NCBI RefSeq assembly: GCF_011305535.1
Contig: NZ_CP049905.1
Span: forward strand, 3,532,001 to 3,596,000
DNA: 64,000 bases
Source: Diaphorobacter sp. HDW4B
GTDB lineage: Bacteria; Pseudomonadota; Gammaproteobacteria; Burkholderiales; Burkholderiaceae_C
Direction: 5' to 3'
The notes under the pieces are model-generated. The model saw nothing but the letters and a program-made list of their open reading frames with translations. It did no database searches and was not told the origin of the DNA. Position 1 is the first letter of the stretch; each line of letters begins with the position of its first letter. This document shows positions 1-18,691 of the stretch, piece after piece. The position numbers were made by a program, and so were the translations under genes.

Positions 1-289
1 TTCTGTCGATGTGTTATTTGAGAAATGCCCGTTTTGTGAATATTTGAGAGTTATGCATGTATTTGAATTTGAATGATATTGAATAGTGGGTCGGTATTTT
101 GGCTGTATTGGGATTTTTCTGAAATATCTCGATTTGTGTATTGAAAAATTAACTTTGTTTCCTTTTGTTTGATATATTGAATTGGAACCGATTGAAATGA
201 TGGTCGTGCAGGTGGGGATTTTCGGGGTGCACGAGAAATCGCTTTGAACGGGGAATGAAAAATCAATATATGCAGTGGGAGGCTGCTCT
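1..289. other. AT-rich upstream region of the IPTL-CTERM gene
   Basis: About 290 bp, clearly more AT-rich than the rest of the window, with runs such as TATTTGAATTTGAATGATATTG near 56-80. No coding frame with a credible ribosome site was found. It probably holds the promoter of the gene at 290, but I could not single out a convincing -35/-10 pair. Confidence 0.4.
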
Positions 290-1534
290 ATGTTCAATCT
301 GAAACGAAGTGCTTTGAGTACGGCTGTGCGATGTGCGGTGACTGTTGCGGGTGTGAGTGGGGCAGGATTTGCCGTTGCCGGGCTGGTGGATGCGTCCTAT
401 CCCACTGGCACAACGGCTGGGACATGGACGGTGGACCGATATGCCCCGGCCGTTTTCGCTGCCGGTGGAACAGTGGCGGGTCGCAGTGGGGTGCTCAATC
501 TGGGTGTCGCGCAGGCGGATTCCTTGGCCAATCGGCCCGCCGCATACAACACCGCTTTCTACAACACCCAAGGCCGTGGAATGGCGATGAGCGCGGGGGG
601 CTATTCGGTGATCTACGGAAGCCTTTTCATCCCGACCAGTTGGACCACGTCAAGCGGCATTGCTGCCAACCGCCGCACCGACATGTGGGGAACTGCTGCA
701 CCGGCCACCGGCGGAGACACCTGCACGGCTGCGGGCTGCGACCACTTCCCGATCCTCGGATTTTCCAATGCGGACGTGGCCAGTCCCACCACAGCAGGTG
801 GTACGGGGCGATACCGTGTCTGGGACACGCAAACCGGCTGGCAGGAACTCAGCGCCATCCCGGTCAAATATGACCAGTGGAGCGACATGTGCATCGCGTT
901 CACGGGCACAGAACTCAAGAGCTACATCAATGGAGCGCTGGCCTACACGCAAAGCGATCTGACGCATGCCGACGTTGCCACGCTGGGCCCGACCACCCAG
1001 TTCAGTCGCATGATGATGCAGGCCTACAACTTTGGCAGCGACTACACGGCGCAATGGAGCAGCATCGGATATGGCCAGCTCGCCGCCGTTGCTGCACAGA
1101 CCGGCAACGGGCAGAACACCAATGTGAGCACCGGTTTTGCCACGTCGTTGACCGTGGTGGCGCAAGACACATCCGGAGCGCCATTGCCCTGCGTGCCGAT
1201 CACCTTCACCGTGCCGGCATCCGGCGCGTCGGCCACGTTGAGCACGATGACTGTTTTCACGGATGTGACCGGAACAGCCACAGTCACGGCAACGGCTAAT
1301 GCGACGGCGGGTGCCTATGCGGTGACCGCCGCAGCGCCTGGACTGGCAGCGCCAGCCAGCTTCAATCTCACCAACGTGACACCGGTGGTGGTTCCGCCCA
1401 AGGAGCCCACCATCAGTGCCGCGGCACCGATCCCGACACTGGGCCAATGGGCGCTGATGGCGCTGAGCCTGCTGGCAGGGCTGAGTGGCATGTTCATGCT
1501 CACGAGGCGTTCGAGCGAACGGCATCGTTCGTGA
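290..1534 (+). CDS. IPTL-CTERM-sorted exported protein with Ig-like domain
   Basis: A 414-aa exported protein of unknown function. It starts with an N-terminal signal segment (about residues 1-35, basic LKRS start then a hydrophobic stretch). The middle region (about 40-270) contains four cysteines and resembles a lectin or laminin-like fold only in general character. An invasin/Big_1-like Ig domain follows (about 275-375; pattern of VPITFTVPASG and TGTATVTATAN). The C-terminus has the IPTLGQWA motif, a hydrophobic helix and an RRSSERHR basic tail. That tripartite tail is the IPTL-CTERM sorting signal, handled by an archaeosortase/exosortase-type protease in related bacteria. ATG 290 is chosen because GGGAGG lies 7 nt upstream; a GTG at 275 is in frame but has no ribosome site. 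The gene stands alone downstream of an AT-rich stretch and converges on the oxidase operon. Confidence 0.85.
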   Translation: MFNLKRSALSTAVRCAVTVAGVSGAGFAVAGLVDASYPTGTTAGTWTVDRYAPAVFAAGGTVAGRSGVLNLGVAQADSLANRPAAYNTAFYNTQGRGMAMSAGGYSVIYGSLFIPTSWTTSSGIAANRRTDMWGTAAPATGGDTCTAAGCDHFPILGFSNADVASPTTAGGTGRYRVWDTQTGWQELSAIPVKYDQWSDMCIAFTGTELKSYINGALAYTQSDLTHADVATLGPTTQFSRMMMQAYNFGSDYTAQWSSIGYGQLAAVAAQTGNGQNTNVSTGFATSLTVVAQDTSGAPLPCVPITFTVPASGASATLSTMTVFTDVTGTATVTATANATAGAYAVTAAAPGLAAPASFNLTNVTPVVVPPKEPTISAAAPIPTLGQWALMALSLLAGLSGMFMLTRRSSERHRS

Positions 1535-1592: not shown

Positions 1593-3191
1593 TCAGTCCC
1601 CGCAAACCCGCTGCCCCGAACTCGTCGCCTGAGATTGCGCGCGCGCTGCGGGCGAGGGGTTGAGCGGGCCTGCGTTCACGTTGATCCATTGACTGGCGTT
1701 GGTGGGATGTGGCTCCATGGTTTCGAGCTGGTTCACGCGGCGCAGAAAGCAGAAGTTCTCGAATGGCACGGGCGGCTGGTAGCCCTTGATGCCGAAGGCG
1801 GTGGCCTCGGGGCCGATGTATTCGCTGATGGGGGCTTCGTATGAACCGTAGGCGTAGCCGCCGCGTCGGCTCGCGCCGGGCAGGCCGAGCTCGACCGAGT
1901 TGGTGCCGGGGGCAAATTGTGCGCCGCCGCTGCTTCCGGGCGAGAGCGTGACGCGCACCGCACGGCGCACGACGCGGGCGTCTTCCTTGGCGGACCAGAT
2001 CATCTTGAAGCGGCCCAGTTGCGCGCCAGTGGTGGGCACCAGTCGTGTGGCAAGGCGTGCGGGTGCGGCGGTGGGCGGAAGGGCGCTGCTGTCGATGTCG
2101 TCATCGAAGATGTCGACGGTCACGCTGCGCGATGGATCGGTGGTGAAGCCGATGAGTTTGAAGCGCGACGTCTCTTCCTGCGGCAGATCGGCATAGCGCT
2201 CGCCCACCGTGCCTTCGAGCGCTTCTTCGATGAACACGTAGGCCGGCTCCACGCCCGGCGAGGTGTAGATGCCAAGCTCGGCCTCCAGTCCGTGCAGCGA
2301 CACGAAATAGCCCTGCGCGTCCTTGTCGAGCCGACCGACATAGTTGACGAAATCGCCCTCGCGCAACGGGGCTGGCAGATGCGGTTTGCAGCCCAGGAGC
2401 GCCACGGCACCGATTCTTCCGGTGCCGCTTTGAACGGGAATTTCCCCACAGGTAAAGCGCTTGACAGCAGCGTCCGAAGGCCGGTTGCCGGAGGGGCACA
2501 GCGCATCGCTCGGTCCGCGCGGAATGCATACGGGAAAGCCGGTGCGCGCATGCACGGGCGAGTTGCCGGGGTCGAGCGCAAAGCGCTGATCCTGTGTGGT
2601 CTGCGTGCGGCCGTAGATGCCTTCCGGATCGTTGAGTTTGAGGCGCGCGGATGCGGCGTTGTTGCCGGTGCCGGGCTCGGAGCCGACGACGATGCTGCCA
2701 TCTGCGCCAAAGCTGCGGATGAAGCCGCCACCCAGATGCAATGCGCCCTGCGAGATGCGCACCGAGCCCGCGAGGTAGACACCGTTGACGATGTTGCCCA
2801 TGACCTCGACTTCGGCTGGCGGCAACGGGCATTGTCTGCCCGCGAATTCGGGAGTGACAGGGCAGGCGAGATCGGCGGGGCGCAGGTCCTGCAGCGCCAG
2901 GCCGCTGCGGTTGGCGTTGATCGTGGACCGCAGGTCGCGGCCCTTGAAGAGTTGCTGCGCGGTGAGGTAGCCGCCCGGCATGGTGATCACCAGATTCTGC
3001 GGAAGGCGCACGTCCACCCCGCGCACGCGCAAGGTGGCTGCCGATGTGCGGCTTGCGGGCTGATCGAGCGTGAAGCGCTCGATGTGGCCGATGATGGCAA
3101 AGCCCGTCGGCGGCTGCACGGGCTGCGCCTGCGCGACGGACACCAGTCCAAGCCACAGCAGTGCAAAGCAGAGGATGGTGCGGACTTTCAT
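1593..3191 (-). CDS. Exported protein of unknown family, last gene of oxidase operon
   Basis: 532 aa with a clear Sec signal peptide (MKVRTILCFALLWLGLVSVAQA, cleavage after about residue 22). I do not recognise the family. The mature part starts with a beta-rich segment (GFAIIGHIERFTLD, then LRVRGVDVRLP) that reads like a small beta-barrel. The middle has several Cys pairs (around CPVTPEFAGRQCP, CIPRGPSDALC, CGEIP, GCKP), and there is a second REGDFVNYVGRL segment. Disulfides in the periplasm are likely. Its ATG overlaps the stop of the upstream cytochrome gene (ATGA at 3188-3191), so translation is coupled and the product probably works with the multicopper oxidase system. Function is otherwise unknown. 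Confidence 0.85.
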   Translation of the reverse strand: MKVRTILCFALLWLGLVSVAQAQPVQPPTGFAIIGHIERFTLDQPASRTSAATLRVRGVDVRLPQNLVITMPGGYLTAQQLFKGRDLRSTINANRSGLALQDLRPADLACPVTPEFAGRQCPLPPAEVEVMGNIVNGVYLAGSVRISQGALHLGGGFIRSFGADGSIVVGSEPGTGNNAASARLKLNDPEGIYGRTQTTQDQRFALDPGNSPVHARTGFPVCIPRGPSDALCPSGNRPSDAAVKRFTCGEIPVQSGTGRIGAVALLGCKPHLPAPLREGDFVNYVGRLDKDAQGYFVSLHGLEAELGIYTSPGVEPAYVFIEEALEGTVGERYADLPQEETSRFKLIGFTTDPSRSVTVDIFDDDIDSSALPPTAAPARLATRLVPTTGAQLGRFKMIWSAKEDARVVRRAVRVTLSPGSSGGAQFAPGTNSVELGLPGASRRGGYAYGSYEAPISEYIGPEATAFGIKGYQPPVPFENFCFLRRVNQLETMEPHPTNASQWINVNAGPLNPSPAARAQSQATSSGQRVCGD

Positions 3192-4552
3192 GGCAGCTCC
3201 TTTCGTGAGCGCAGTTCGGAAAATGGCGAGGATGCGGGCGATGCGGGCGGTCTGGAGACGAACGGCTCGGGCTGCCAGCCATGCGCCTGACTGCGGCTGA
3301 ACGCCAGCGGCGCGCCGGGCAGTGGCGCGTATCCGGTGAGCGAACGGGCTTGCGCGAGCAGCGACTCCGGCACCACGTTGCGGCCGCTGCGTGCCAACGC
3401 TTCCACTGCGGTGCGGGCCGCGGCTTGGCCGAGCACGAACCAGAGCGATTGACCTTGCCGCTCGGCGTGGTCGGCGACCGCCAGCGGGACAAAGAGGATC
3501 AGCCGGTGATCGAGTTCGGGTGCTTCGAGCGGCTTGGCGCGCATGCCCGAGAGTTCGATCAACTGCTTCAACGTGATGCCTGCCTCACGCCAGCGCGAGC
3601 GCAGAGAATCGACCTCCGCTGCCGGTGCGAATGCGGCGACGCACAAGCGGGTTCCCGCAGGCCATTTGGGCGTGCGCTGCGTTTCAGAAGAGATGCTCAA
3701 ACCGCGTGGATCGAAGGTCCATCGGATGCAATCGGCCGGTGCGTTCTGCAATTGCTCCATGGCGATGCGGGCCTGCTGCTCAAGACTGGGAAGCAGCGGC
3801 CATTGCCAGCCGGAAGGGTCGGCGTTGCGCGCCTGAACATCGAGTGTGGCGATGCTGGGAAGACGCTGGTCGCGCAGCAGTTTTTGCTGTGCCGGAAGCA
3901 GCGCGCTGGCCACCAGCGCAAACACATCGCTTGGCAAACCGCGATCCGATGGCAGCAGTCGCAGTTGCCGACCATGCACGCCGCCTGCGGCATTGGTTTG
4001 ATCGAGCACGCTTTGCACGCCCGCCATCACTTGCGCGCGTGCGTCTGCATGTGCGATCCCTTCGAGCGCAACGCCCAGTCGCAGCTCGTTCGACGAGATG
4101 CCGCTCTGGGGTTGCGCTGCATTGCCAAGCCATGGCCAGAAGGCGTCGAGCGCGGCTACTTCATCGTGGGTCAGCGCGTATCGCGGCATGGCGGGGTGGA
4201 GTGGGCGGCCTGTCGCATCTCGTCCATCGCGCAACGCATTCGCAAGGTTCAGACGACTTGTTTTTCCTGCCGCCCATCGAATGTCGGGCGCTGCCACGTT
4301 GGCCTCGCGCGAGCCTTCGCCCAGCGGACCATGGCACTGCACGCAGGCCACGGCCGAGGCGGGCATGGGCGCGCCGGAGACCGTCGCTGGCTGCGTGAAT
4401 GGGCGCGTGCCGTAAAAGAGCGCGCGGCCTTGTTCTGCTGCTGGCGTCCATGGGGGCAATGGCTCGCTGGCGCGTGCTGAGCAAGGCATCTGCAGCGCAG
4501 CCAGCCCGGTGGCCGCGGCGAGCAGCAGAGTCAGGGCACTGTGCGGCGACAT
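3188..4552 (-). CDS. Cytochrome c fused to a Peripla_BP_6-like domain
   Basis: 454 aa, exported (signal peptide about 1-28, ending SARA-SE). A single class I c-type haem site CVQCH lies at residues 70-74, and Met122 (HPAMPRY) is a plausible axial ligand. From about residue 153 the protein resembles the branched-chain amino-acid binding protein fold: LRLGVALEG, then NAAGGVHGRQLRLLPSD at about 187-203. It lacks an obvious transporter partner. The haem domain could carry electrons to or from the multicopper oxidase; the second domain could be a docking or ligand-sensing module. Both roles are inferences from position. ATG 4552 is preferred to an upstream in-frame start at 4714 because the signal peptide begins there. 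The stop overlaps the next gene's ATG. Confidence 0.85.
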   Translation of the reverse strand: MSPHSALTLLLAAATGLAALQMPCSARASEPLPPWTPAAEQGRALFYGTRPFTQPATVSGAPMPASAVACVQCHGPLGEGSREANVAAPDIRWAAGKTSRLNLANALRDGRDATGRPLHPAMPRYALTHDEVAALDAFWPWLGNAAQPQSGISSNELRLGVALEGIAHADARAQVMAGVQSVLDQTNAAGGVHGRQLRLLPSDRGLPSDVFALVASALLPAQQKLLRDQRLPSIATLDVQARNADPSGWQWPLLPSLEQQARIAMEQLQNAPADCIRWTFDPRGLSISSETQRTPKWPAGTRLCVAAFAPAAEVDSLRSRWREAGITLKQLIELSGMRAKPLEAPELDHRLILFVPLAVADHAERQGQSLWFVLGQAAARTAVEALARSGRNVVPESLLAQARSLTGYAPLPGAPLAFSRSQAHGWQPEPFVSRPPASPASSPFSELRSRKELP

Positions 4553-4574
4553 GATGGCTGGCACCGTTTGCGTT

Positions 4575-5186
4575 TCAGGCTGCGGCGGCGCGCAGCCATT
4601 GAAGAATGTCGTTGGCGCTGGCCAGGCCCAGCGACCGCAGCCAACGCGACTTGCCCGCGTGGCCCACCCAGATCTGCGCGGGATGGTCGGCCAATGATGC
4701 GGCATGCGCGCCAAACGCGCGCAGCACCTCGTCGATGTCGCGTGTGTGCGCCGCGTTGCCGGTCAACATCCACCAACGGGCCTCTGCGCCGATGCGTGCT
4801 TCGTGGCGTTCGGCAAAGCGCGAGACGGCTTGCGGCGAATCGCCCAGCGGATCGATGGACAGCGAAACCAGCGTCGTCTGCTGTGCCGAATCCTGCGCTT
4901 GCAGCATATCTTGCAACTGCCGAAAAATGGCGGTCTGAGGTGGGCAGAAGCTGCTGCAGCCCGTATAGAAAAAGTTCACGGCAACCGGCCCGCGTGCAAG
5001 CAACGGGCGCAAGGCAACGGGATCGCCACGATGGTCGAGCAGCGTTACATCGGGCACGCGCGGGGCTTGCGCGTTCCAGTGGGGCGTTGCCGTGGTGCGC
5101 GCACACAGAACGCGTGGCCAGCACAGCGCGGAAACGGCGGCACCAGCGGCTGCGCCCGCGAGCAGACTGCGGCGTCCGGAGATCAT
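4575..5186 (-). CDS. SCO1/SenC/PrrC family copper chaperone
   Basis: 203-aa periplasmic thioredoxin-fold protein. The N-terminus has a twin-arginine-like start (SGRRSLLAG) and a hydrophobic segment. The copper-binding CxxxCP motif is at Cys77 and Cys81 (TGCSSFCPP), and the third ligand is probably His168 (ADHPAQIW), as in the family. SCO proteins deliver copper to cytochrome oxidase CuA or to other copper enzymes; here the obvious client is the giant multicopper oxidase of the same operon. The ATG at 5186 overlaps the stop of the beta-propeller gene (ATGA), which argues for translational coupling. The downstream cytochrome gene follows after 22 nt. Confidence 0.92.
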   Translation of the reverse strand: MISGRRSLLAGAAAGAAVSALCWPRVLCARTTATPHWNAQAPRVPDVTLLDHRGDPVALRPLLARGPVAVNFFYTGCSSFCPPQTAIFRQLQDMLQAQDSAQQTTLVSLSIDPLGDSPQAVSRFAERHEARIGAEARWWMLTGNAAHTRDIDEVLRAFGAHAASLADHPAQIWVGHAGKSRWLRSLGLASANDILQWLRAAAA

Positions 5187-7048
5187 GGCAAACCTCCCAG
5201 CACATGCGAGCCGAGCGCTCCTGCATGAAACGGCAAATCGTGCGAGGCGCTGCTCACCAGCAGATCGATGCTGGTCTGGCCGGGGGGCTGCGCGATGCGC
5301 GCTTCGTAGATGCCGTCGCCCGCAAAGCGCATGGTGCGGCGGGTTTGCCAGCCGCTGCGTTTGTCGAACACCAGCAATTGCAGATCGCGCACATCGGCCA
5401 GCGGCTGTGCCTTGTCGCCTTCGCCCACCGAGAGCGCCGCGCGCACCAGCCAACCCTCGCCATCGGTCTTTACCTGCAGCAGACGCGCGCGCACCTGCGC
5501 AGCGGCAGCAACGACGGCGCTTTGGTTCTGCGTGCCGATCACCGGCACTTCGAGCGCAACGCATTCCGCAAAACGCGGCTGCACGCCGCTCACCACCAGC
5601 TCGTAGTTGCCGCTGCGTGGCGCGCGCAACGTTGCGCGGTAGCGGCCCTCGCCCAGCGACTGCAAACCATCGTCGAGCAACAACAGCGCGAGCGGGCTGC
5701 GGCGGTAGTTCGAGAAGCTGCCGATGGGCGCCATCATGCCTTCGGTGTATTGGTAGATCTGGCCGTCGTGGGGGCTGGCGACATACATGCCCGCGCCATC
5801 GGGCAGGCGTTGCAATCGATGTGCGCCGCTGCCCGGCGCAAGGCTGGGCGCGGCATCGCGCGGTTGCGCACCCACCGCTACCTGCACCGGCTTGGCCTTG
5901 CCGTTTCGCAGATCGGCCAACGACAACAGCATGGCGCGTGATGCGACGGCGCTGTGCAGATAGGCGAAACTGCCGCTGAAGGCGATGTCGGTGATGGCGG
6001 ACTCCAGCGGCAACTGCTGCAGCACGCGCGTCGTGGCGACGTCGATGACGAGCACATCCGTGGCGGTTGTGGCGAGCGCGTGGCGGCCTTCGTCGAAAAG
6101 TGCAATGCGTTGAACCGCGCTGGTGGTGTCGATGTGCTGCTGCGCAGTCCCTCGCGCATCCAGCCACACCAGCCCGCCAGCGGCGGGCGCGGCCAGTGCG
6201 CGCTGCGCCAGAGGGCTCCAGACGGCGTGCAGCAGGCGGCCAGTCGGGGCGACCTGTGCGATCTGTGCGCCTTGCCCGATCTGTGCAGGGACGCGCACGA
6301 TGCCATCCACCCCCAAGCCCAGCGGTTCGCTGGCCTGATCGGGCAACAGCCAGGCCTGCACGCGCGGCGCGGCAATGCGCTCGGGATCGCTTTGCGCGTT
6401 GGCGATGCGCAGCCACTCGTCACGACCGGCCTGCGCCACCCAGATGGCGCCGCCAGCCTCTGCCAGCGCAACCGGGCGCGCGCCGTTTGCCAACTTGTAG
6501 CTGCGCCGCACGCGCCGTGCGTCGGTGTCCACCACCAGCACCTGATCGACTTCGGGCAGCGCCAGCCACACCTCGTGCACATCGGCGCGTTGCAGCACGG
6601 CGACGGGCGTGCCGGGCAGGGTCAGCACATCTTCGAGCTTGGCCTGATTGAGGCGCAGAAACGGGTTGATGAAGGTGAGCGTGTTGTCCGTGTTCACTGC
6701 GAGCAGGCGGTGGATGTTGAAGTCCACGGCCGCGCGTCGCCCCAATCCCGGTGATGCGAGCATGCGCACCTTGTCGCGGCATGCCAGTTCGCCTTCGGAC
6801 AAGGTCGGCAGCGGCTTTTGCAGCCAGGCAGCCAATCGGCGCGCAGGCAGCGAAACAGGCTGGCCTGTGGCTTCGTCGCGCAGCGTGAGTTCGAGCGTTG
6901 CCAATCCATCGGCGGGCAGGGGCTTGAGCTGCGCCTGCACCTGCACCGCGCCTTCGCCCTCGGCGCGCGCCATCCGGATGGGCGAGCATGCATAGAGCGC
7001 GGCCGCCACCGGCAGCAGCCATCGCAGGAGGTGGGACGGTTTGCGCAT
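5183..7048 (-). CDS. Exported YVTN-type beta-propeller protein
   Basis: 621 aa with an N-terminal signal peptide (MRKPSHLLRWLLP..., predicted cut ARA-EG near residue 29). It contains repeated blade-like units of the YVTN/Lvp type: LLAVNTDNTLTFI, VLVVDTDARRVRRSYKL, DVLVIDVATTRVLQQL and MYVASPHDGQIYQY. A C-terminal beta-rich part (about 460-621) has the SGNYELVVSG and GIYEARIAQPPG segments. Similar propellers in redox operons act as binding scaffolds; no active-site motif is visible. ATG 7048 lies one nucleotide beyond the preceding stop (7050-7052). A longer in-frame start at 7150 would overlap the upstream gene and has no leader. Confidence 0.85.
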   Translation of the reverse strand: MRKPSHLLRWLLPVAAALYACSPIRMARAEGEGAVQVQAQLKPLPADGLATLELTLRDEATGQPVSLPARRLAAWLQKPLPTLSEGELACRDKVRMLASPGLGRRAAVDFNIHRLLAVNTDNTLTFINPFLRLNQAKLEDVLTLPGTPVAVLQRADVHEVWLALPEVDQVLVVDTDARRVRRSYKLANGARPVALAEAGGAIWVAQAGRDEWLRIANAQSDPERIAAPRVQAWLLPDQASEPLGLGVDGIVRVPAQIGQGAQIAQVAPTGRLLHAVWSPLAQRALAAPAAGGLVWLDARGTAQQHIDTTSAVQRIALFDEGRHALATTATDVLVIDVATTRVLQQLPLESAITDIAFSGSFAYLHSAVASRAMLLSLADLRNGKAKPVQVAVGAQPRDAAPSLAPGSGAHRLQRLPDGAGMYVASPHDGQIYQYTEGMMAPIGSFSNYRRSPLALLLLDDGLQSLGEGRYRATLRAPRSGNYELVVSGVQPRFAECVALEVPVIGTQNQSAVVAAAAQVRARLLQVKTDGEGWLVRAALSVGEGDKAQPLADVRDLQLLVFDKRSGWQTRRTMRFAGDGIYEARIAQPPGQTSIDLLVSSASHDLPFHAGALGSHVLGGLP

Positions 7049-7049
7049 C

Positions 7050-7619
7050 TCAATGCATCCAGTGGTAGATCCAGCCGATGGCCAGCTTGCCCACGGGGCC
7101 GCCGTTGCTGGCGATGCGGATGCGAATGGCATCGATGCGCTCGTCAGCATCCACGCCAGCGCTGAGAAACGCGGCGGTGGTGAAATCTCCGGGCAGGCAG
7201 ACGTGATCGGTCACGCCCGCAACGGGCGGCATGTCGTCGAACCCGTTGTTGCCCTGCAAGCGAATGCCGAGCGTGGCTTCGTAGTCGGTGCCGACCGGCG
7301 CCAGCATGGCCGCGAACAGGCCGACGCTGCGCACGCCCGATGTGAAGCTGAGCGTGAGCGCGCCGGAGTCGGGCGAGGTGATCATCAACAGCGGCGTGCG
7401 CCGTTCGAGATTCACATCGAGCCCGCCCGCCGGTGAGCAGACCGAAGACTGAATCACCTGTCCTGAAACCGGCGAGTTCACGGTGACTGCGCACTGGCCG
7501 CTGCTGTGCGCATAGGCACCAGCGGCCAGACGGATCGGCATGGGCGGAATGTCGCCGCTTCGCAGCCAGCCGATGAGGTTGCTGTTGTTGAAATCGGTGG
7601 GAAACATTGCGTTGGCCAT
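7050..7619 (-). CDS. Conserved-type hypothetical protein without export signal
   Basis: 189 aa, beginning MANAMFPTDFNNSN. It is a beta-rich sequence (ALTLSFTSGVRSVGLFAAMLAPVG, YEATLGIRLQGNNG, IDAIRIRIASNGGPV) resembling the jelly-roll or PEP-CTERM-associated adhesin type of fold, with three cysteines (two closely spaced in the middle, one near HVCLPGD). I do not recognise a named family. Unlike every other product of this operon it has no N-terminal signal peptide or membrane segment. It starts 8 nt after the multicopper oxidase stop with GAGGAC as the ribosome site. It may be co-exported with, or act in the cytoplasm on, one of its neighbours. Confidence 0.75.
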   Translation of the reverse strand: MANAMFPTDFNNSNLIGWLRSGDIPPMPIRLAAGAYAHSSGQCAVTVNSPVSGQVIQSSVCSPAGGLDVNLERRTPLLMITSPDSGALTLSFTSGVRSVGLFAAMLAPVGTDYEATLGIRLQGNNGFDDMPPVAGVTDHVCLPGDFTTAAFLSAGVDADERIDAIRIRIASNGGPVGKLAIGWIYHWMH

Positions 7620-7627
7620 GGCAGTCC

Positions 7628-10600
7628 TCAGGGTTTGATGGAGTCGGAAGCGGAGTGCGAAGTGGGGTCACCCGATGGCGCGTGCACGCGCAGGATTCCC
7701 CATGCGCCGCCATCGAAAAGGAAGCTCGCCTGATCGCGCAGCAGGTAGTCCTTGGGCAGTGCGGCCTTGCCACCTGCGACCATGCCCAGCGTCACGCCCA
7801 TCATCGGACCAAAGCCGTTGTAGATGCCTTGCCAGAGCATGCAGCCTGAGGGCAACGGGCCGCTTGAAACGTCGCAACGTGCAGGGTCGAAAACGCGCGA
7901 TTGCTGATTCCATGGATTGGGTCGGAAGCCATGCCCGGCCACGGTGAGGCCTTGCTGGCGCGTGTGGCCGCCGGCATGCACGAAATGCAGGCGCATGGGC
8001 GTGCCGGCCTTGGCGTTGATCACCGGCGTTTCAGGGTCGCAGGCGAGCGGCCCGTTGCCGTTCGGTGGCATGCCCGCTTCGCATTGCGTGCCTTGCTTTG
8101 CGGAACTCAGCACCGCGGTCAGATCGAAGTTCTCGTTGCGGTCTCCGAAGTCCACCGACGGGCTGCCGACGGTGCGTGCCCACAGCGGTTCTGTCTTGAA
8201 GTTGATGGCCTTGACGCCGTAGTCGTCGGGCTCTTCCGCACCCTTCAGATCCGGCACGGGAAAGCCGCCGCGCACGGCGCTCACGGCATCTTGCTTGAGC
8301 AGCACATGGTCGCCATAACGATTGCCATCTGCTGTGCAGACGGTGCGCGAGGTGCCGCCGGGGAAGTTGCGCTGATCGTCGTCGCACACGCGCGAACCCT
8401 CGGGGCCGATGACGAGTGCCCCCGCAAGCCCATGCACTGCGTGCTTGACCACATCGCCAAAGCTGCGCAGCGGCAGGCCACCGAATTCGACGGGCTGACT
8501 GGCAACGCGCGGGCCACTGCCATCGTTCACGCGCTGCAGATCGCGCGCCGACCAGACCAGCGTGCGGCTGCACCGGTCAGCCTCGCGCTCGGCGTCGTTG
8601 CGGCACGCGGGAACGAGCGAGCCGGGTGTCTGCGTGAGCGATGTGGCGACCGGCGATTCGGCGGCCAGCAGCGCGCCGTTCCAGCTCACGTTCGATCCGT
8701 CTGCGTGCACCGGGTTCTGCGCCACGCGTGGTGCGGACAGGCCCACCGTGCTCGACATGGTGAACTGGTTGAGGTTGAAGCCATCGGTGATCATCGGCAG
8801 AAAGTTGTAGTACGCCTCGGCCTCGGTGAGCGGGCTGCTGCGCGGCACGGCGGGCGCGAGGTGGTTGCGCAGCTTCACTGTGATGCACTGGCCTGCGGCG
8901 GCGCGCAGCACCAGCGGTTCGACGGTGCGCTGCTGGTTGCGGAACTGGTTCTGCAATTGCGCCCAGATGGCGCTGTGCGTTGCGGGCTGCGGCTGTGCGG
9001 GATCGGCACCGTCAAAACAGCCCATGTCGGTGAGCTTGCTGGCGTCGCGCTGGCAGGTCTTGCTCTCGCGGTTGAGCACGTAGACCACGGCATGCGGGTC
9101 GCGGATGCCGAATCGGCGGCTGTATTCCAGACCGGCTGTGGCCGAGCCGCAGTTGCCCATCAACTCGCAGACTTTGGCGACGCTCACGTCGAAGCTCTTC
9201 ACATCCATCGATTCGCCAGCGCTTCGGCCACTGGTGCATGCGGCGAGTTGCGCTTCGAGCAGTTCGGGCGTCGCCGTCGCCGTCGCCGTGGCGCGCGGCA
9301 CGCGTGCGATGCGCCGGGCGACCTGATCGGCGGTGTTGGCAAGCCCGCAATTGCGCCCCTGCGATGGATCGCAGTACGCGCGCAGCGTGCCCCACATGCC
9401 GTCCCACAACTGGTCGACGGACGAGCCGAAATACAGATAGTCGGCCTGCGGCAGATTGAAGTGGGGAATGCGCACGTCGAACTCGAAATGCTCGGAAATG
9501 CCGATGGGCTGGGCGTTGGTGTAGCCCGAGTTGTCGGAGTCCGGCATGCGCAGCCACTTGGTGCCGTTCATCGTGAAGATGTGCTGCGCTTCCTGCGATC
9601 CTTGAACCAGGCGGATCTGCACCGGATCGCCCTCGTGGCTGGCCAGAATCGGTGTGGCCACGTCTCCGAACGCGCGCCAGGATTCGCCCACATGCAGGGC
9701 GGGGCGCGTGGCCGTGACGCGCGCGGCGCAGAAGCGGCGGAATTCCTCATCGCTGCGCGCCTCGAACGCAAAGTTCGGCGCAGTGCCACCGGGGCTCCAT
9801 TGGTTGGATGCGTAGAGCGAGCAGTTGAAATCCTGCCGCCATTGCTCGGCCTGTTGGACGACGGAGCGCAGGCGCGCCTTTTGCTGTGCGGTGGACTGCA
9901 TGGCGCGCAGCGTGGGCGAGACCAGATCGACCTCGGTCTGCGGCGCACGCCGGTTGCTGTTTTGCGCAATCCATTTCACATAGCTGCGCGTGGCGAGATC
10001 GCGGTCGCGCCTGGCATGCACGGCGCTGGAAAAGCCATTGGCCATGTCGCGCAGACAGTCGCTGTCGCCCACCTGGCAGGTGCTGCCGTCGGCGCGCTTG
10101 GAGGTCTCTGAATAGTCAAATCCGCCCAGCGACGGGTTCCAGTGCACATCGGCAATGCGCAGCGCGAGCGGTTCGTTGCGGTAGTTGACGAGTTGCGTGC
10201 CGGGGTCTTCGCTGGCGATCACCAGCGGGCGGGCAGGGTTCACCGCGACCTGCCGTTCGCCGAAACGGCGCATCGACACGTCGCGTGGCAGCTCGGTGTT
10301 GATGGGTTCGAGCGCGAGGTTGTAGACCATGGCGAAGTCGGCAAACGCGAGTCCGAATTCGCGGCGTGTCTGGTGTGCTTCGCCGCTGGTGCAGTTCACG
10401 TCGTTGCCGACCTGATAGGGGCTGCTGCCCGGTTCGTTCAGGCAAGTGGGCGAGACGATGGTCGCGCGTGTCGCGGTCGGCCCGCCGTCCTTGCGCTGCG
10501 GGTGGCGCAGCGGTGGGCGTGGCTGCAGCATGGCGATCTGCTCGTCGCCCAAGCCACCTGTGGGAGAGGGTGGGGCGCTCAGGTCCGCGCCGCCGATGAC

Positions 10601-13600
10601 TGCTGCAGTCAAACAGGCATCGGCCTGCGCTTGGATGGCGCGATCCTGATCGGTGGCCTGTGCGCCGAGCGCCGCCACGCGCTGGCGTTGCGCGAAGGAT
10701 GCGCGAATGCCCGCATCCAGCGCTTGTACGTCGTTCACGTTCGCGCCCGCCACGGCCGCGCAGGTGTTCAGCACGCTTTGGCGTTGGGCCGGGTCGGCGG
10801 GCAGTTCGGCGCGCCAGACGGAGTTGGCGGGCTCGATCACCAGCGCTGCATACAGGCCATGCTGCTGGTGCGAACTGGGCCCGAAGTGGTCGTGCGTGAA
10901 CACGGTGCGCAGTGTGTTGTCCTTGCCTGCGAGCGGGCCGTTGCGCACCAGAATCGGGTCGGCCCACCAGCGCTGCGTGGTGCGCTGCGCGCCGCAGTAG
11001 GGGTGGTGTTTGTTCAGGCGTTCGAGGTAGGCGTGGTCGCCTTCGTTCGCGCCTTGCGGTGGGCACAGGCCCTTGGCGGCGAGCTGTGGGTCGCGCGCGG
11101 CGTTGGCATGTATCGCGCCACCGGGTTGGAACAGCGGATGTGGCTTGGGCGCAAGCAGCCTGCGTCCGGCAGTGTGGTTGATCGCCATGATGCGCTCGCG
11201 CACTTCGTCGGGGCTGTACGCGCCGTCTTCGTAGTTGAAGCCGTTGCCCGAGCCGTCGGATGAGGTGACGTCGAACTTCACCAGATGGATGTGCTGGCCG
11301 ATGGTGTCGGTGGGGGTGTAGATCTGGAAGTCGTCGGCGTTGAGCGCGCTCGGCACAAAGTTGGACGATTTGAAATGGATGCAGTCGCCCGAGTTGGCGC
11401 GAAAGAACAGCGGCTCGGGCATCTTCGTGCGGTTGTTCGCGTTGATCACGTCCTTGATGTCGTCTTCCAGAATCACGATGCGGCCTTGCGGGTCGAACCA
11501 GCCGTGGCGGTTGACGGTGATTTCGGTCTGTATGAAGGCCGCGCGGTAGTCGCGCACTGGCGCGTTGATCGGGCAGGGGTTGGCGAATGGCGCACCGGGC
11601 GCGCGGCCACGGCCATTCACGCGGAACAGCGGCTCGCCCTGCGGCGCAGGCATGCCCGCTGTGGTGGCCGAGAACGCCGTGCGGTAGCCGTTGCCGAAGG
11701 TCCACCAGGAAGGGCGCGGCTGCGTTGTCATCGGGGCAGGTTGCAGACCACCCTCGGCAAGCGATCCGGCTTGCGCGAGTTGGCCTTCATGGAATTGCAT
11801 GGCTGCTTTTTCGGCCGGAGTGCCTTCATGCGGCAGCACGTCGATTTCAAGCGTCTTCCATTCGCCCGCGAGCGCTTCGAATGCGGTGGGAAACTCGCGC
11901 GCGACCTTCGCTGCGATGACCTGCGCGGCCTCTCCACCTTTGGCCTTGGCTGCATTCAGCAGCTTGCGGTAGCCCGGCGTTCCGGGTCTCTCGCGCCAGA
12001 GCATCGAGACCTCGCCGCGCTTGACCACATGGCGCGGTAGGCCGCCGTCCACCACTTTGTTTGCATCGGGGGCTTGCGCGTAGTTGGTGTAGCCGGGATC
12101 GTTCACGTCCATGTCGAGCACGGGCTGCGGTGGCCGATGGCCGGGCGATCCCGCCACGTAGAACGGGTAGCCGCGAAACGCCGCGCTCGGCATGGGCGCG
12201 AGCGCAATGCCGGGCAGCGGAACGAGCGCCGGGGTCTCGATGCCCGACGTCACTTCCGCATCGGGCAGGCTGCGGCTTTGCGGGTTGTTCTGTGCGCTCA
12301 CGGGCTTTTTCGGATCGAAGGTGCCGCGATGCAAGCCGTTCTCGAACGCATCGTGCACGCGCCAGAGCTCCCACATGCCCTGCGCGAAATGCGGATAGAG
12401 GTGGCAGTGGAAGATCGAGTCGCCCACGGTCAGGTTGCGATTGCCCGATCCGCCGAATTCGATGCCGTAGCTGAAGGTCGCGCCTGGCGAGATGGTCTGC
12501 GAATCGAGATAGGTCGAATTGGGGTCGCTTGCATCCATCACCCACTGGTGCGCGTGCAGGTGAAAGACATGGGTCTCCTTCGGCCCTGCATGCAGGTTGC
12601 GGAACACCACCGGGTCGCCCAGATAGCTGTGGTGCACGTTGGATGGATCATCCGGATAACGCGCGCCAGTGGGGTGCTTGCCCTCGCTGTCCCACTTCAG
12701 CACTAGCGCCGGATCGCCATTGGCCCAGGACGAAAGAAAGAACTCTTCGGCGCGGCATTCCGGGCATTTCGCAGCGGGCCCCACACCGCGTTGCGGCTGT
12801 GCGGCATAGGCGGTCGAGCCCATGCTCGACACGCCGTAGTTGATGCCCATGCCGTCCTTGATGTAGTGCAGCGGGTTGTCCTCATCCTCCAGTTCGGGGA
12901 AGGCCTGCACCGCATGCACCTCGTCATGCAGCACCACGGTGAATTCGCGGAACGCCGGCTCGCAGCGCTGGCCGTCGACCAGCGTGTCCTTCATGCGCTC
13001 CTCGCAGCGCTTTTGCTGCCTGGGGCTGCGCACGATGATGGCGTTGATGTCGCTGTGCACGATCTCGCCGTCCCTGACCATCGAAAGCCGCTCGTAGTCG
13101 ACTCTCTCGTAGGGGTGCGCGTTGCTTCCATTGGCTTGCGTGGCCACGCTTTTCATGGCGTCTTCGCTGATCTGCGAGCGATACCAGCTCGATTGCGGCG
13201 GCTCCACATTCACCGCTGCAAACAGGCCCAGACCGATCTGTCCGCCGTCGCCTTCGCCGCCGATCGGTGCTGCGGTGGAATGCGCAAAAAAGCTGCCTTC
13301 ATGGCGCGCGGCCCACAAGGTGACGGAGGTCTGGCCAGGCTGGATGACCGAGCCGCTGCGGTAGCGGCCTTTCACCTCATTCGATGTGTTGTGATGAAAG
13401 AAGATGCCTTGCCGTTCGGGCAGGCCCACGTAGGTGCCGTCGCCCCCGCACACCGCATTCACCGGGCAGTTGCGTGGCTGCTCCACTTCCAGGCCCGAGA
13501 TGAAGAACGATGCACTGCGCGTGCGTGGCGCGTCAACGCTGACTTTGGACAGCGGCTTGAGCTGGCGTGACGAAGGACTGCCGATCGGGTCCATCAAATG

Positions 13601-14137
13601 CGCAGGGGCTGCGGCCACGCGTTGGCCGTTCAGCGGCACGGTGGGGTCCGGCGGCTTGCCGCCTTCTTCTTCCCACTCGGGCGAGAGCCAGTTGTGCAGC
13701 GTCACCTCCAGGCAGCCGCCCTCGTGCACGCGCAGCACCAGAGGGCGAGGGCGCTTGTCGTCGCGCAGTCGGGCGTTGCCGGGACCGATCGCCTTGCTGG
13801 AGTCCAGCGCCACCACATCGCGTTTGAGCGCATACATCATTCCTGCAGGAACAAAGGCGCCAAAGCGATTGAGCACATAAGCCTGTTCGAGCGCGACGAT
13901 TTCGGCGCGGATGGTGTTGCCTGCGCGGCACTGCGTGGAGGCCTGGGGAGGAAGTGGTTCCGTTGTCTGAGGCTGCGGCTCCGGCATGGATGGCGATGTC
14001 GTCGGCGCAGTGCAGGATGCGGTCGCCGCAGCACAGGCAATGACCAGCATCCGCAGCGCACGTGACCATGCGGATGGCCATGAAAATGGCATGCGCGTGT
14101 GCTCTCCGACTCCCGTGGAACGACTGAATCGCATCAT
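7628..14137 (-). CDS. Giant multicopper oxidase (Mn-oxidase-like size class)
   Basis: 2,169 aa from ATG 14137 (GAGGGAG just upstream; ATG 14134 is equally good; a TTG at 14173 is less likely). The N-terminus has a hydrophobic export segment ending TASC, a weak lipobox, so it may be a lipoprotein. Numbering from the TTG reading, copper-ligand motifs are: HEGSFFAH (291-298), HLHAHQW (538-544), HCHLYPHFAQGM (589-600, the classic T1/T2/T3 motif HCHxxxHxxxxM), HIHLVKFD (about 960), HDHFGPSSHQQHG (about 1090-1102), HIFTMNGTKW (about 1530), HAVHGLAG (about 1915) and HFVHAGGH (about 2070). That is several cupredoxin domains, far above the usual 450-600 aa. Bacterial Mn(II) oxidases (MnxG, MofA, McoA) are comparably oversized; substrate assignment here is inference only. 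First gene of the operon. Confidence 0.9.
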   Translation of the reverse strand: MMRFSRSTGVGEHTRMPFSWPSAWSRALRMLVIACAAATASCTAPTTSPSMPEPQPQTTEPLPPQASTQCRAGNTIRAEIVALEQAYVLNRFGAFVPAGMMYALKRDVVALDSSKAIGPGNARLRDDKRPRPLVLRVHEGGCLEVTLHNWLSPEWEEEGGKPPDPTVPLNGQRVAAAPAHLMDPIGSPSSRQLKPLSKVSVDAPRTRSASFFISGLEVEQPRNCPVNAVCGGDGTYVGLPERQGIFFHHNTSNEVKGRYRSGSVIQPGQTSVTLWAARHEGSFFAHSTAAPIGGEGDGGQIGLGLFAAVNVEPPQSSWYRSQISEDAMKSVATQANGSNAHPYERVDYERLSMVRDGEIVHSDINAIIVRSPRQQKRCEERMKDTLVDGQRCEPAFREFTVVLHDEVHAVQAFPELEDEDNPLHYIKDGMGINYGVSSMGSTAYAAQPQRGVGPAAKCPECRAEEFFLSSWANGDPALVLKWDSEGKHPTGARYPDDPSNVHHSYLGDPVVFRNLHAGPKETHVFHLHAHQWVMDASDPNSTYLDSQTISPGATFSYGIEFGGSGNRNLTVGDSIFHCHLYPHFAQGMWELWRVHDAFENGLHRGTFDPKKPVSAQNNPQSRSLPDAEVTSGIETPALVPLPGIALAPMPSAAFRGYPFYVAGSPGHRPPQPVLDMDVNDPGYTNYAQAPDANKVVDGGLPRHVVKRGEVSMLWRERPGTPGYRKLLNAAKAKGGEAAQVIAAKVAREFPTAFEALAGEWKTLEIDVLPHEGTPAEKAAMQFHEGQLAQAGSLAEGGLQPAPMTTQPRPSWWTFGNGYRTAFSATTAGMPAPQGEPLFRVNGRGRAPGAPFANPCPINAPVRDYRAAFIQTEITVNRHGWFDPQGRIVILEDDIKDVINANNRTKMPEPLFFRANSGDCIHFKSSNFVPSALNADDFQIYTPTDTIGQHIHLVKFDVTSSDGSGNGFNYEDGAYSPDEVRERIMAINHTAGRRLLAPKPHPLFQPGGAIHANAARDPQLAAKGLCPPQGANEGDHAYLERLNKHHPYCGAQRTTQRWWADPILVRNGPLAGKDNTLRTVFTHDHFGPSSHQQHGLYAALVIEPANSVWRAELPADPAQRQSVLNTCAAVAGANVNDVQALDAGIRASFAQRQRVAALGAQATDQDRAIQAQADACLTAAVIGGADLSAPPSPTGGLGDEQIAMLQPRPPLRHPQRKDGGPTATRATIVSPTCLNEPGSSPYQVGNDVNCTSGEAHQTRREFGLAFADFAMVYNLALEPINTELPRDVSMRRFGERQVAVNPARPLVIASEDPGTQLVNYRNEPLALRIADVHWNPSLGGFDYSETSKRADGSTCQVGDSDCLRDMANGFSSAVHARRDRDLATRSYVKWIAQNSNRRAPQTEVDLVSPTLRAMQSTAQQKARLRSVVQQAEQWRQDFNCSLYASNQWSPGGTAPNFAFEARSDEEFRRFCAARVTATRPALHVGESWRAFGDVATPILASHEGDPVQIRLVQGSQEAQHIFTMNGTKWLRMPDSDNSGYTNAQPIGISEHFEFDVRIPHFNLPQADYLYFGSSVDQLWDGMWGTLRAYCDPSQGRNCGLANTADQVARRIARVPRATATATATPELLEAQLAACTSGRSAGESMDVKSFDVSVAKVCELMGNCGSATAGLEYSRRFGIRDPHAVVYVLNRESKTCQRDASKLTDMGCFDGADPAQPQPATHSAIWAQLQNQFRNQQRTVEPLVLRAAAGQCITVKLRNHLAPAVPRSSPLTEAEAYYNFLPMITDGFNLNQFTMSSTVGLSAPRVAQNPVHADGSNVSWNGALLAAESPVATSLTQTPGSLVPACRNDAEREADRCSRTLVWSARDLQRVNDGSGPRVASQPVEFGGLPLRSFGDVVKHAVHGLAGALVIGPEGSRVCDDDQRNFPGGTSRTVCTADGNRYGDHVLLKQDAVSAVRGGFPVPDLKGAEEPDDYGVKAINFKTEPLWARTVGSPSVDFGDRNENFDLTAVLSSAKQGTQCEAGMPPNGNGPLACDPETPVINAKAGTPMRLHFVHAGGHTRQQGLTVAGHGFRPNPWNQQSRVFDPARCDVSSGPLPSGCMLWQGIYNGFGPMMGVTLGMVAGGKAALPKDYLLRDQASFLFDGGAWGILRVHAPSGDPTSHSASDSIKP

Positions 14138-14650
14138 GTTCTCCCTCGCGTGCGAAGCATTCGGGCGCGGCAAGGCATGCCAGCATGCAGGCGTGCATGG
14201 CCGCTGGGCGGGTCATTGAGTAGCCAGGCTACGTCACCGTGGTCATGTACCGGGAGTCGTCTTGCGCGGCTTGCGGTACAGGAGCTATCCCCGCCAAGCC
14301 TGCGTGCTGGTCGCAGCGGTGGCGCTGCGACGCTGTCTCCACGTCCGTGCCAGTTCTTCTCTCCATGGAAGAAGGGCACATCGGTGCGCGGATTTCTAAT
14401 TCATTGGCACGCAACCTACGGAGTCAAACCTGGCGAGCGGGCAAGTCCGGTGCGCGTTGCGCGGATGTCTGCCATTGGTCGGCGAACATGGCGAAAGTGC
14501 CTGAGCGCTCACTTCGTTTGTATCGAAGGAACCGTAACATGAGAGCGTCAGACTGTTGTAACGAGCGCGACGATTGGAATTGTTAACCAATTCCAAATTG
14601 AAGCAAGGGGTTTGGAGGTCCCCTGCCGGATTCACGACTCTTGCGATTGC
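14138..14650. other. Structured leader and intergenic region upstream of oxidase operon
   Basis: 513 bp between the panB stop (14651) and the multicopper oxidase start; both genes are on the minus strand. No credible gene. It contains four inverted repeats: GTAGCC/GGCTAC (14220-14232); TGTACCG/CGGTACA (14246-14252 and 14274-14280); a perfect 9-bp stem GTCGCAGCG/CGCTGCGAC with loop GTGG (14310-14331); and TTGGAATTG/CAATTCCAA (14574-14596). On the minus strand the first three would lie in the 5' untranslated RNA of the operon, the last near its promoter. I could not match it to a known riboswitch. Confidence 0.5.
14574..14596. promoter_or_regulatory. Palindrome, candidate operator of the oxidase operon
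   Basis: Inverted repeat TTGGAATTG-TTAAC-CAATTCCAA: perfect 9-bp arms and a 5-bp spacer, AT-rich, no T-run. It is located between panB and the oxidase gene, about 440 bp upstream of the latter. The shape fits a dimeric regulator site better than a terminator. The regulator is unknown. Confidence 0.45.
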
Positions 14651-15559
14651 TTACCAAGCGTGAACTTGATCGTTCGGAAATTCCCCGGATTTGACCGCTC
14701 GCACATAAGCCTCGATAGCACCGCGCACCGAGCCCGCGTCCTGCATGAAGTTGTGCACGAACTTCGGGTTCTTGCCGAGGTTCACGCCCAGCATGTCGTG
14801 CATCACCAGCACCTGGCCTGCGGTGCCGCTGCCCGCGCCGATGCCGATGGTGTGGCAGTGCGGCAGCGCCTGCGTGAGGCTGCGCGAGAGTTCGGCGGGC
14901 ACCATCTCCAGCACCAGCATCGATGCGCCCGCGTCCTGCAGCTCGGCGGCCTGACGGCGCAGCGTGGCGGCGGCCACATCGTCACGGCCCTGAACGCGGT
15001 AGCCGCCCAGTGCGTGCACGGTCTGCGGCGTGAGGCCCAGATGCGCGCACACCGGCACGCCGCGCTCGACCAGAAACTGCACCACGGGCGCGGTCCAGCC
15101 ACCTCCTTCGAGCTTGATCATGTGTGCGCCCGCCTGCATCAGTCGGCTGGCGCTGCGCATGGCTTGCTCCTTGTTTTCGGCATAGCTGCCGTAGGGCAGA
15201 TCGCTGATCAGCCAGGCCGTGGCCTGCGCACGGTGCAGGCCACGCGCCACGCATTCGGTGTGATAGGCCATGTGGTCCAGCGACACGCCCACGGTGCTGT
15301 GCAGGCCCTGGCAGACCATGCCCAGCGAATCGCCCACCAGAATGCACTCGATGCCCGCCGCATCGGCCACGGCCGCGTAGGTGGCGTCGTAGGCGGTGAT
15401 CATGGTGATTTTCTCGCCCGCTTCGCGCATCTGCGCCAGACGCGGCAGGCTGATGGGTTTGCGCTGCGGCATGGGGGAGGCGGGCGGAATCGTGCCGTAG
15501 GGGGTTCCGGTCGTGGACGTCGCCGTGGACGCGGGTGCGGGCGTGTTGCTGGTGCTCAT
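14651..15559 (-). CDS. panB: 3-methyl-2-oxobutanoate hydroxymethyltransferase
   Basis: 302 aa. Transfers a hydroxymethyl group from methylene-tetrahydrofolate to 2-oxoisovalerate, giving ketopantoate for pantothenate/CoA synthesis. The PanB signatures are present: [27 protein letters not shown] (metal-binding Asp), [15 protein letters not shown] and [21 protein letters not shown]. The N-terminus carries about 30 extra Ser/Thr/Pro-rich residues before PISLPRLAQ. Start ATG 15559 has a CGGAGG site 7 nt upstream. It stands alone here: panC is not adjacent. It is transcribed divergently from pabBC. Confidence 0.96.
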
Positions 15560-15686
15560 GGAAGTGCCTCCGTACTTTTTGGAAATTGGGCGAAGTCTAT
15601 AAGACTCGCCGGAACCGCGCCAAAGAGCAAGGACATGGGCGACTGCGCGGCGTCGATCCGCTGCTGCATGGAATAATTTGCGCCCC

Positions 15687-17483
15687 ATGCTCGCCACACA
15701 GATCGACTTTCCGAACCCGCACGACCCCACCGCAACGCGCCTGCGTTGGCGCTTTGGAACGCCGTTGCGGGTGTGGCAGGCGCATGCGATCGATGAAGTG
15801 CGCGGCGTTCTGGAGGCGGTCGATCAGGCCGCGCGCGCCGGTCGCTGGTGTGTAGGCGGGCTGGCGTATGAAGCGGCGGCCGCTTTTGACGTCGCTTTTG
15901 ACACCGCTTTTTCCACGCGCATTCCGAGCAGCGGATTGCCGCTCGCATGGTTTGCCGAATTCGATGCGCCCGTGAGCGCCGATTCCGATGATGCCGAGGC
16001 CAACCAACAGCTTGCGCACATTCACTGGAAACCCGGCCCGCATTCCGAGCAGGCACGCCCTGCGTTCGAGGCCGACATCGCGCGCATTCACGCAGCGATT
16101 GCGGCGGGCGAGTGTTATCAGATCAATTACACCGCGCCGCTGCATGGCGAATTGTTCGGCTCGTCCCGAGCGCTGTTCGATGCCTTGCGCGCATCGCAAC
16201 CCGATGGGTATGTGGCGTGCATGGATTGGAATGGCGAGCAGATTCTGAGCCTCTCGCCCGAGCTGTTTTTCGATTGGAATGGCGAGCAGTTGCTGACGCG
16301 CCCGATGAAGGGCACCGCCGCGCGTGGTGCAACGCAGGAAGAAGACGAGGCGCTTGCGAATCACCTGCGCACATCCCCCAAGGAGCGCGCAGAGAACGTG
16401 ATGATCGTCGACCTGCTGCGCAACGATGTCTCGCGCATCGCCACGCCGCACAGCGTGAAGGTGCCGCGTCTTTTTCATGTGGAAGCCTTGCCGACGGTGT
16501 GGCAGATGACATCCGACGTGACTGCGCGCACGCGCGAAGGCACGCGCCTGGTGGACGTGTTCGCGGCGTTGTTCCCATGCGGATCGATCACGGGCGCGCC
16601 CAAGGTACAGGCGATGCGCCTGATCGCCGAACTCGAATCCGCACCGCGTGGCGTGTACTGCGGCGCGCTGGGCATCGTGCGGCCAGGGGATGTGCCGGGC
16701 AGTCTGCATGCCACGTTCAACGTGCCGATTCGCACGCTCACCGTGCGCGGCGATCAGGTGCAATGCGGCATCGGCAGCGGCATCACGTCTAGTGCGAATG
16801 CGGCGGACGAATGGCAGGAGTGGAAACACAAACGCGCCTTCATCGACCGCGCCTTGCCGCCACTGCAAGTGCTGGAAACCTTGGCGTTGGAGCAAGGCCG
16901 TTTCAGGCATCTCGACAAACACCTTGCGCGCATGCGTGCGTCGGCTGCGCATTTCCATTTCGATTGGCCCGAAGCGCAGATCGAGCAATCGCTGAACGCG
17001 CTGCGCGAAGCCCATGCACAAGGCACTTGGCGCGTGCGTTTTCTGCTTGGCGAAAACGGCGTTTTCGAAGCACAAGCGTTTGCTTTCAGCGCAACGCAGC
17101 AGCCCGTGAAGCTGGCCTTGGCCGATCGCGCATTCACCGCAGCGCACAGCGACTTTGTGCGCCACAAGACCACGCGCCGCGCGCATTACGCGGCGTTTGA
17201 ACCGGCCATCGACAGCGGCGTGTTCGACGTGATTCTGTGGAACGAAGCGGGCGAAATCACCGAATGCACGCGCGGCAACATCGCCATGCAGATGGACGAC
17301 GATGGCCGCTGGATCACGCCGCCGTTGTCATGCGGCCTGCTGCCCGGCGTGGGCCGCGCGCTGGCCATCGAGTCTGGCCGCATGCAAGAAGAAGTGCTGC
17401 ATGTGCGAGACATAAGCAAAGTCCGCACATGGGCCTTCCTCAACAGCCTTCGCGGCTGGCTGGATGTGGTTGTTGTTCGTTGA
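15687..17483 (+). CDS. pabB: Fused aminodeoxychorismate synthase I / aminodeoxychorismate lyase
   Basis: 598 aa, a natural PabB-PabC fusion making 4-aminobenzoate for folate. The N-terminal part (about 1-380) is a chorismate-binding anthranilate synthase I-like domain with [21 protein letters not shown] and [16 protein letters not shown]. The C-terminal part (about 385-598) is a PLP-dependent fold-type IV lyase with the HKTTRR lysine motif (catalytic Lys in [11 protein letters not shown]), ECTRGNIAM and [13 protein letters not shown]. The glutaminase PabA is not nearby. ATG 15687 is used; an in-frame TTG at 15678 is less likely. The stop is followed 28 nt later by a hairpin repeat. Confidence 0.94.
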
Positions 17484-17511
17484 GCGTTCGGTTTGTCGCT
17501 CGTGCGGGGGC

Positions 17512-17603
17512 GGCAATACAGCCCCTCATGCGTCGTTGTGGAAGCCTTGCCGTATCGGCATACTGTCTGCGGCTTCACGCCTAGCCTGAGGGGCTGTCTT
17601 GCC
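17512..17603 (+). repeat. Covarying hairpin repeat, copy A
   Basis: 92-bp imperfect palindrome. The outer stem GGCAATACAGCCCCTCA pairs with TGAGGGGCTGTCTTGCC except for one T/C mismatch. An inner stem AAGCC/GGCTT surrounds an apical GTAT-CGGC-ATAC. The same layout recurs at 54398-54646 and 57582-57677 with compensated base changes. It lies 28 nt after the pabBC stop, so it may end or protect that transcript. Confidence 0.8.
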
Positions 17604-17702
17604 GTTGTGGCTACCAACTCGACGGCCCACTTCGCTTCGCAGGTCCGCTCCAGCAAGCGGAAACCAAGACCAATACAAAGTCGGCGCTCTGCTCGCACCC
17701 CG

Positions 17703-17896: not shown

Positions 17897-17932
17897 ATCC
17901 GCACTCAACCCCCTGGCAGAACAACAAAAAAC

Positions 17933-18652: not shown

Positions 18653-18691
18653 GAAGAACAAAAAGGGGAGTCTGTTGAAGGAGGTGGAAGA

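Follow-up and report, generated by a model that had tools for sequence, protein, structure and literature searches.

A conserved six-gene variant of the mnxG-type multicopper oxidase operon, probably for manganese oxidation, in Diaphorobacter sp. HDW4B

We found a variant of the mnxG-type operon at positions 1593-14137 of a 64,000-nucleotide stretch of the Diaphorobacter sp. HDW4B genome (contig NZ_CP049905.1; hereafter, the window). The locus probably serves metal oxidation outside the cytoplasm, at the cell surface, and Mn(II) is the most likely substrate. Mn(III) may be a further candidate. The genes and their surroundings are as follows.

g1, 7628-14137, minus strand: 2,169-aa exported multicopper oxidase (MCO) of MnxG/MofA type
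g2, 7050-7619, minus strand: small leaderless protein of 189 aa, predicted to fold as a beta-sandwich/jelly roll
g3, 5183-7048, minus strand: exported beta-propeller of YVTN type (621 aa), as encoded in second place in the published mnxG operon
g4, 4575-5186, minus strand: 203-aa SCO1/SenC copper chaperone
g5, 3188-4552, minus strand: 454-aa fusion of cytochrome c and a periplasmic binding domain
g6, 1593-3191, minus strand: exported protein of 532 aa, rich in beta structure and with conserved Cys
panB-g1 intergenic region, 14138-14650, minus strand: 88% mean column identity in three congeners
Flanking gene, 275-1534, plus strand: IPTL-CTERM protein with a lectin-like match, convergent with the operon

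A previous sequence-only reading had described six tightly packed, co-directional genes, and this was borne out when the ORFs and junctions were recomputed on the minus strand. The junctions are 8 nt (g1-g2), 1 nt (g2-g3), -4 nt (g3-g4), 22 nt (g4-g5), and -4 nt (g5-g6). In addition, by a simple measure, the peak hydropathy of the first 50 residues was 1.75-2.79 for g1, g3, g4, g5, and g6 and 0.87 for g2.

The g1 protein matched the NCBIfam model of MnxG (NF041487) in five stretches along the protein (E = 1.6e-224), and its relative in PDB was MnxG 9bxa (E = 9.8e-87). In Pfam, it gave a sub-threshold match to Cu-oxidase_2 and nothing else. The MnxG score was 748.2 bits, far under the curated cut-off of 3,100 of NF041487; the equivalog threshold was thus not reached, and g1 is not an MnxG equivalog. 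The copper ligands, on which the sequence-only reading had hung its interpretation of the oxidase, are present by alignment: 12/12 expected ligands were found in the window protein, a complete T1 and T2/T3 set. The motifs are in the order C-D-A-B (C at 523-528, D at 577-588, A at 949-951, and B at 1082-1084), and the roles of these positions are those which we take from general knowledge of MCOs. Furthermore, when MCO core regions from 93 sources were aligned (90 rows; none from L022, L044, and L051), eight ligand sites were kept in 90/90 rows, the A pair in 88/90, and the B pair in 83/90; the remaining positions were gaps, with zero substitutions. In the alignment with 9bxa, an Ala of MnxG stands opposite His 583 of the window protein, a presumed type 1 ligand.

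On its own, the g3 protein of the window matched propellers weakly, and it had no hit in NCBIfam at E 0.001. When it was combined with 18 of 60 members into a profile of 19, the surface-layer propeller 1l0q was found (E = 5.2e-54), and the PQQ and YVTN propeller models matched 15 and 14 of these 19 members, respectively. The sequence-only reading had also named an SCO copper chaperone and a haem-c/binding-protein fusion, and both assignments hold. The g4 protein scored 55 bits for SCO1/SenC in Pfam against a cut-off of 22.8, and it has a CxxxC motif (C77, C81) and a conserved H168. The cytochrome c domain of g5 has one CxxCH motif (C70, C73, H74, and M122), and the Peripla_BP_6 region of the window protein is just under the Pfam family cut-off. 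When the window g5 was aligned with 18 of 43 located members, Peripla_BP_6 was matched in 19/19 and Cytochrom_C in 18/19. Meanwhile, the g5 profile found Leu/Ile/Val-binding proteins in PDB, which are of the branched-chain amino acid class. According to the available text of PMC5566968, mofABC and related clusters include SCO, and MofC-like proteins combine Cyt c with a periplasmic binding domain, which is the domain plan of g5.

The available descriptions of the Pseudomonas putida GB-1 mnxG operon (PMC11409713, PMC8218464) give a giant MCO, a YVTN propeller, SCO1/SenC, and a cytochrome c/amino-acid-binding fusion in the same order as in the window, where g2 is an extra gene between the MCO and the propeller. 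In Table 4 of PMC11409713, the GB-1 operon consists of mnxG, a YVTN propeller, SCO1, SCO1, a substrate-binding protein with a cytochrome c domain, and SurA. However, by this published description, to which the window was compared, GB-1 has two SCO genes and a SurA-domain gene in the last place, and neither g2 nor g6 is listed. We found no prolyl isomerase in the window operon, since none of the six proteins matched a PPIase family at E up to 0.1; the flanking 275-1534 gene and panB are not PPIases either. Gene deletions in GB-1 identified MnxG and McoA as Mn oxidases, and the mnxG mcoA double deletion is described as forming no Mn oxide under the conditions used (available text of PMC11930936). 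In addition, the cytochrome c maturation genes of P. putida are described as having a role in Mn oxidation (PMC11409713).

Other known systems are similar in part. The operons of OF001 and A210 have been described (PMC8218464). The mofABC operon of Leptothrix discophora SS-1 and the mof-like operon of Rubrivivax sp. A210 include, as described, a giant MCO and a MofC-like cytochrome/binding-domain protein (PMC5566968, PMC8218464). However, a prolyl isomerase, MofB, is encoded in the mof operon and not in that of the window, and MofA was compared by description. The A210 operon, as described, also includes an exported unknown protein, which may be a counterpart of g6. The Bacillus complex MnxE3F3G (PMC5622069, as available; PDB 9bxa) has a MnxG homologue with small partner proteins encoded alongside, but its MCO has ~1,230 aa, and we found no homology between g2 and the two small ORFs (presumed MnxE/MnxF) beside the homologue on a Priestia plasmid. 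Compared by description, the ompB cluster of Geobacter sulfurreducens includes an MCO, a distant MofC homologue, and SCO, and it is tied to Fe(III) reduction (PMC5566968). Thus, the sequence-only claim of one extracytoplasmic oxidation machine is right in that there is one operon with a manganese-oxidase-like MCO, but it is overstated for a novel machine, because the plan is that published, as far as described, for GB-1 (PMC11409713) and is close to the mofA clusters (PMC5566968). The type of system is known, and g2 and g6 set the window variant apart from the described operons. These two families are the only ones that are truly unnamed. No description of the exact six-gene set was found in a full-text literature search, subscription journals being mostly outside its reach.

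The g2 protein of the window matched no Pfam family and has no recognisable solved relative in PDB. Its predicted structure is a jelly roll/beta-sandwich (pLDDT 91.5), and this model had four matches among PDB folds at E <= 0.001, which are carbohydrate-binding-module-like sandwiches of weak similarity (best TM ~0.45). DUF1521 (1/20 members, E = 7e-4) and FlgD_ig (1/20 members, E = 0.09) were not taken as real. Among 20 aligned g2 members, the peak N-terminal hydropathy ranged from 0.02 to 1.44, and for 28 g6 members it ranged from 0.86 to 2.99, although the two ranges overlap and the start codons were picked by script; g2 is likely to be without a leader. The identity of g2 to the window was 71, 65, and 23% in loci L009, L010, and L011.

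For g6, the identities in L009, L010, and L011 were 89, 87, and 43%, compared with 87, 84, and 53% for g1, and those of g3-g5 were below those of g6 in all three loci. By this measure of sequence identity, g6 is the best conserved of the five MCO partners. The g6 protein of the window matched no Pfam family, and DUF7243 (1/28 members, E = 0.18) was not taken as real. The quality of its structural model was modest (pLDDT 73.5), and a PDB fold search with this model gave zero matches at E 0.001. In 369 genomes of the window's class, g6 was found nearly full-length in two, both with a six-gene MCO, and a partial g6-like stretch was found in two further genomes without an MCO. Meanwhile, 13 of the 369 genomes matched the MCO profile; the match was strong in seven, of which five lacked g6. 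By this distribution, g6 follows the six-gene MCO clade and not MnxG-type MCOs at large, and the N-terminal part of g6 is found elsewhere too.

In four loci (L062, L063, L064, and L068; three Planctomycetota MAGs and one titled Bacillota), there are two g6-like proteins each, of ~800 and ~1,475 aa, on the strand opposite to the MCO. In seven others (L035, L038, L039, L041, L047, L048, and L049), which belong to a neighbouring, mostly Nitrospira MCO clade, g6 is upstream of the MCO and not at the operon end.

To survey the gene neighbourhood, we used iterated g2-g6 profiles over all ORFs of 85 sources. One of these was the window, four were loci of related genomes, and 80 were the best of 550 genome-scan relatives. 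In this set of the best 80 of 550 relatives plus five, g2 was present in 23/85 sources and g6 in 40/85, and the order g1-g2-g3-g4-g5-g6 on the same strand was found in 19/85 (18 genomes, as L010 and L020 were taken as one). Thus, the six-gene unit is not due to chance, and its homologues do co-occur in other genomes as the sequence-only reading implied. The carriers are Alpha-, Beta-, and Gammaproteobacteria and Nitrospirota. In the same 85 sources (best 80 of 550 plus five), exactly g1-g3-g4-g5 was found in 18, g6 before g1 with g3-g4-g5 after it in seven, g1 alone in 13 (eight of which have <1 kb of downstream DNA), and other mixtures in 28, including MCO and propeller alone (seven) and g6 with g1 (four). 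The MnxG model matched 9/369 genomes of the class, and four of those regions were inspected. In G360 and G213, the order is MCO-propeller-SCO-SCO-cytochrome, as published for GB-1. The same genes are oriented differently in G087, and the contig of G092 ends after the propeller.

We built a FastTree phylogeny of 84 MCO rows (the 90 less L020, L055, L074, L078, L083, and L086). All 17 six-gene rows were in one 19-row clade with support of 100, although FastTree readily joins long branches and the Priestia outgroup is long. The two further rows of this clade are L025, whose MCO frame is truncated (1,497 aa), and L030, at a contig end. Three MnxG-model rows (L105-L107) formed their own clade elsewhere and were not the nearest kin of g1. 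The names in the 19-row clade are Nitrospira, Nitrosomonas, Rhizobium, Mesorhizobium, Methylocystis, Ancylobacter, Roseicella, Paracraurococcus, and Roseomonas (plasmid). Such mixed genera within one MCO clade suggest that the six-gene set was transferred whole between distant bacteria; many of the records are MAGs, and mis-binning could account for single rows. In addition, a tblastn search of 72,556 plasmids gave 22 records with a relative, and one of the four that were fetched, Roseomonas gilardii pRo-1, carries all six genes; its oxidase, g2, g3, and g6 are annotated as hypothetical proteins. The g6 of pRo-1 is split into two overlapping ORFs (L109:19607-21171), perhaps by a frameshift or a sequencing error. 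With the full-text literature search taken into account, no substrate test is known to us for any member of this six-gene clade.

Within the genus (the window genome, 6.2 Mb in two contigs, and G001-G005; n = 6), the MCO is present in three genomes and absent from three. The site is empty in G001, G002, and G004, where panB (window ~14,620-14,690) joins sequence ~345 bases left of the window start, with ~90, ~25, and ~690 unmatched bases, respectively (the G004 assembly is 83% complete, in 1,130 contigs). In Diaphorobacter caeni, the operon is at the same site without the 275-1534 gene, which is matched in the G003 locus. Upstream of panB, at 15597-20791, there are ORFs of 529 and 240 aa without a Pfam match, a DUF4198 protein, and a TonB-dependent receptor; these genes are possibly a metal or cofactor uptake set. 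No heme peroxidase (PF03098) that could be a second Mn oxidase was found in the window genome, G003, or G005, and one was found in G050.

Upstream of g1, a palindrome GGAATTGGTTAACAATTCC at 14576-14594 is near-conserved in three congeners, and an inverted repeat GTCGCAGCG/CGCTGCGAC at 14310-14331 is kept in three congeners with a varying loop length. From this conservation, both are possible operator sites. No Mn riboswitch or other known RNA was matched by Rfam in this region. A sigma-54 promoter, as reported for GB-1 mnxG, was rejected: there is a conserved -24-like GGCACG block without the -12 GC.

We propose that the SCO protein (g4) would deliver copper and that g1 would draw electrons from Mn(II) at the type 1 copper, with O2 as their acceptor at the trinuclear site. 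The g5 fusion, with its one haem, might exchange electrons with the MCO or sense a ligand via its binding domain. Meanwhile, the propeller g3 and the exported g6 could serve for docking or as a scaffold, keeping the enzyme and the growing mineral outside the cell, and the leaderless g2 may help assembly in the cytoplasm or leave the cell bound to a partner. A bolder and rather doubtful idea is that g2 and g6 are a mineral-handling module added to the MCO core, in which g6 templates or holds the oxide and g2 chaperones g6 or travels with it; the set would then be a mineralisation cassette transferable between phyla, nitrifiers included.

The Mn(II) reading is favoured by the MnxG profile and 9bxa matches, the ligand set, the operon plan, the co-occurrence in the clade, and the GB-1 deletion data. 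It is weakened by the g1 score below the MnxG cut-off, by the MnxG-model rows not being the nearest kin, by the Fe links of MofA and OmpB, and by the absence of a Mn riboswitch and a clear sigma-54 promoter upstream of g1. Those Fe links belong to an alternative that we regard as unlikely, in which the same machine has another main substrate, as an Fe(II) oxidase or an outer-surface electron-transfer MCO of the OmpB/MofA kind. Fe(II) oxidisers are described as having MofA-type MCOs with MofC-like fusions, some with SCO, and OmpB of Geobacter as needed for Fe(III) oxide reduction (available text of PMC5566968). In addition, mofA ranked among the most highly expressed genes of Fe-rich Leptothrix mats, and a possible role as an Fe oxidase is also discussed for MofA (available text of PMC11412304). 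However, the best curated model match of g1 is the Mn oxidase MnxG, and g5 has one haem motif and no multihaem wire.

A surface oxidase for organics (phenolics, humics, or a polymer), with Mn oxidised incidentally, seems less probable still. MCOs are often laccases, g5 has a binding domain of the branched-chain amino acid class, and the g2 fold is carbohydrate-binding-module-like, but that fold match is weak, as given above, and the closest characterised relatives that we found are metal oxidases. Although SCO and MCO occur in copper handling too, it is very improbable that the operon mainly handles copper or removes a toxic metal, since no CopA/CopB/CopC-type Pfam match was found in the six proteins and ten neighbouring ORFs, and the NCBIfam match of g1 is MnxG alone.

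Taking oxidation of Mn(II) as the preferred reading, our results show that the manganese-oxidase operon has a conserved six-gene version, in which two families unnamed in Pfam travel along. Isolates among the carriers, by record title, are D. caeni and Rhizobium sp. Root483D2, in which gene removal should be feasible. Furthermore, genomes titled Nitrospira and Nitrosomonas carry the set, and whether such nitrifiers oxidise Mn can thus be tested directly.
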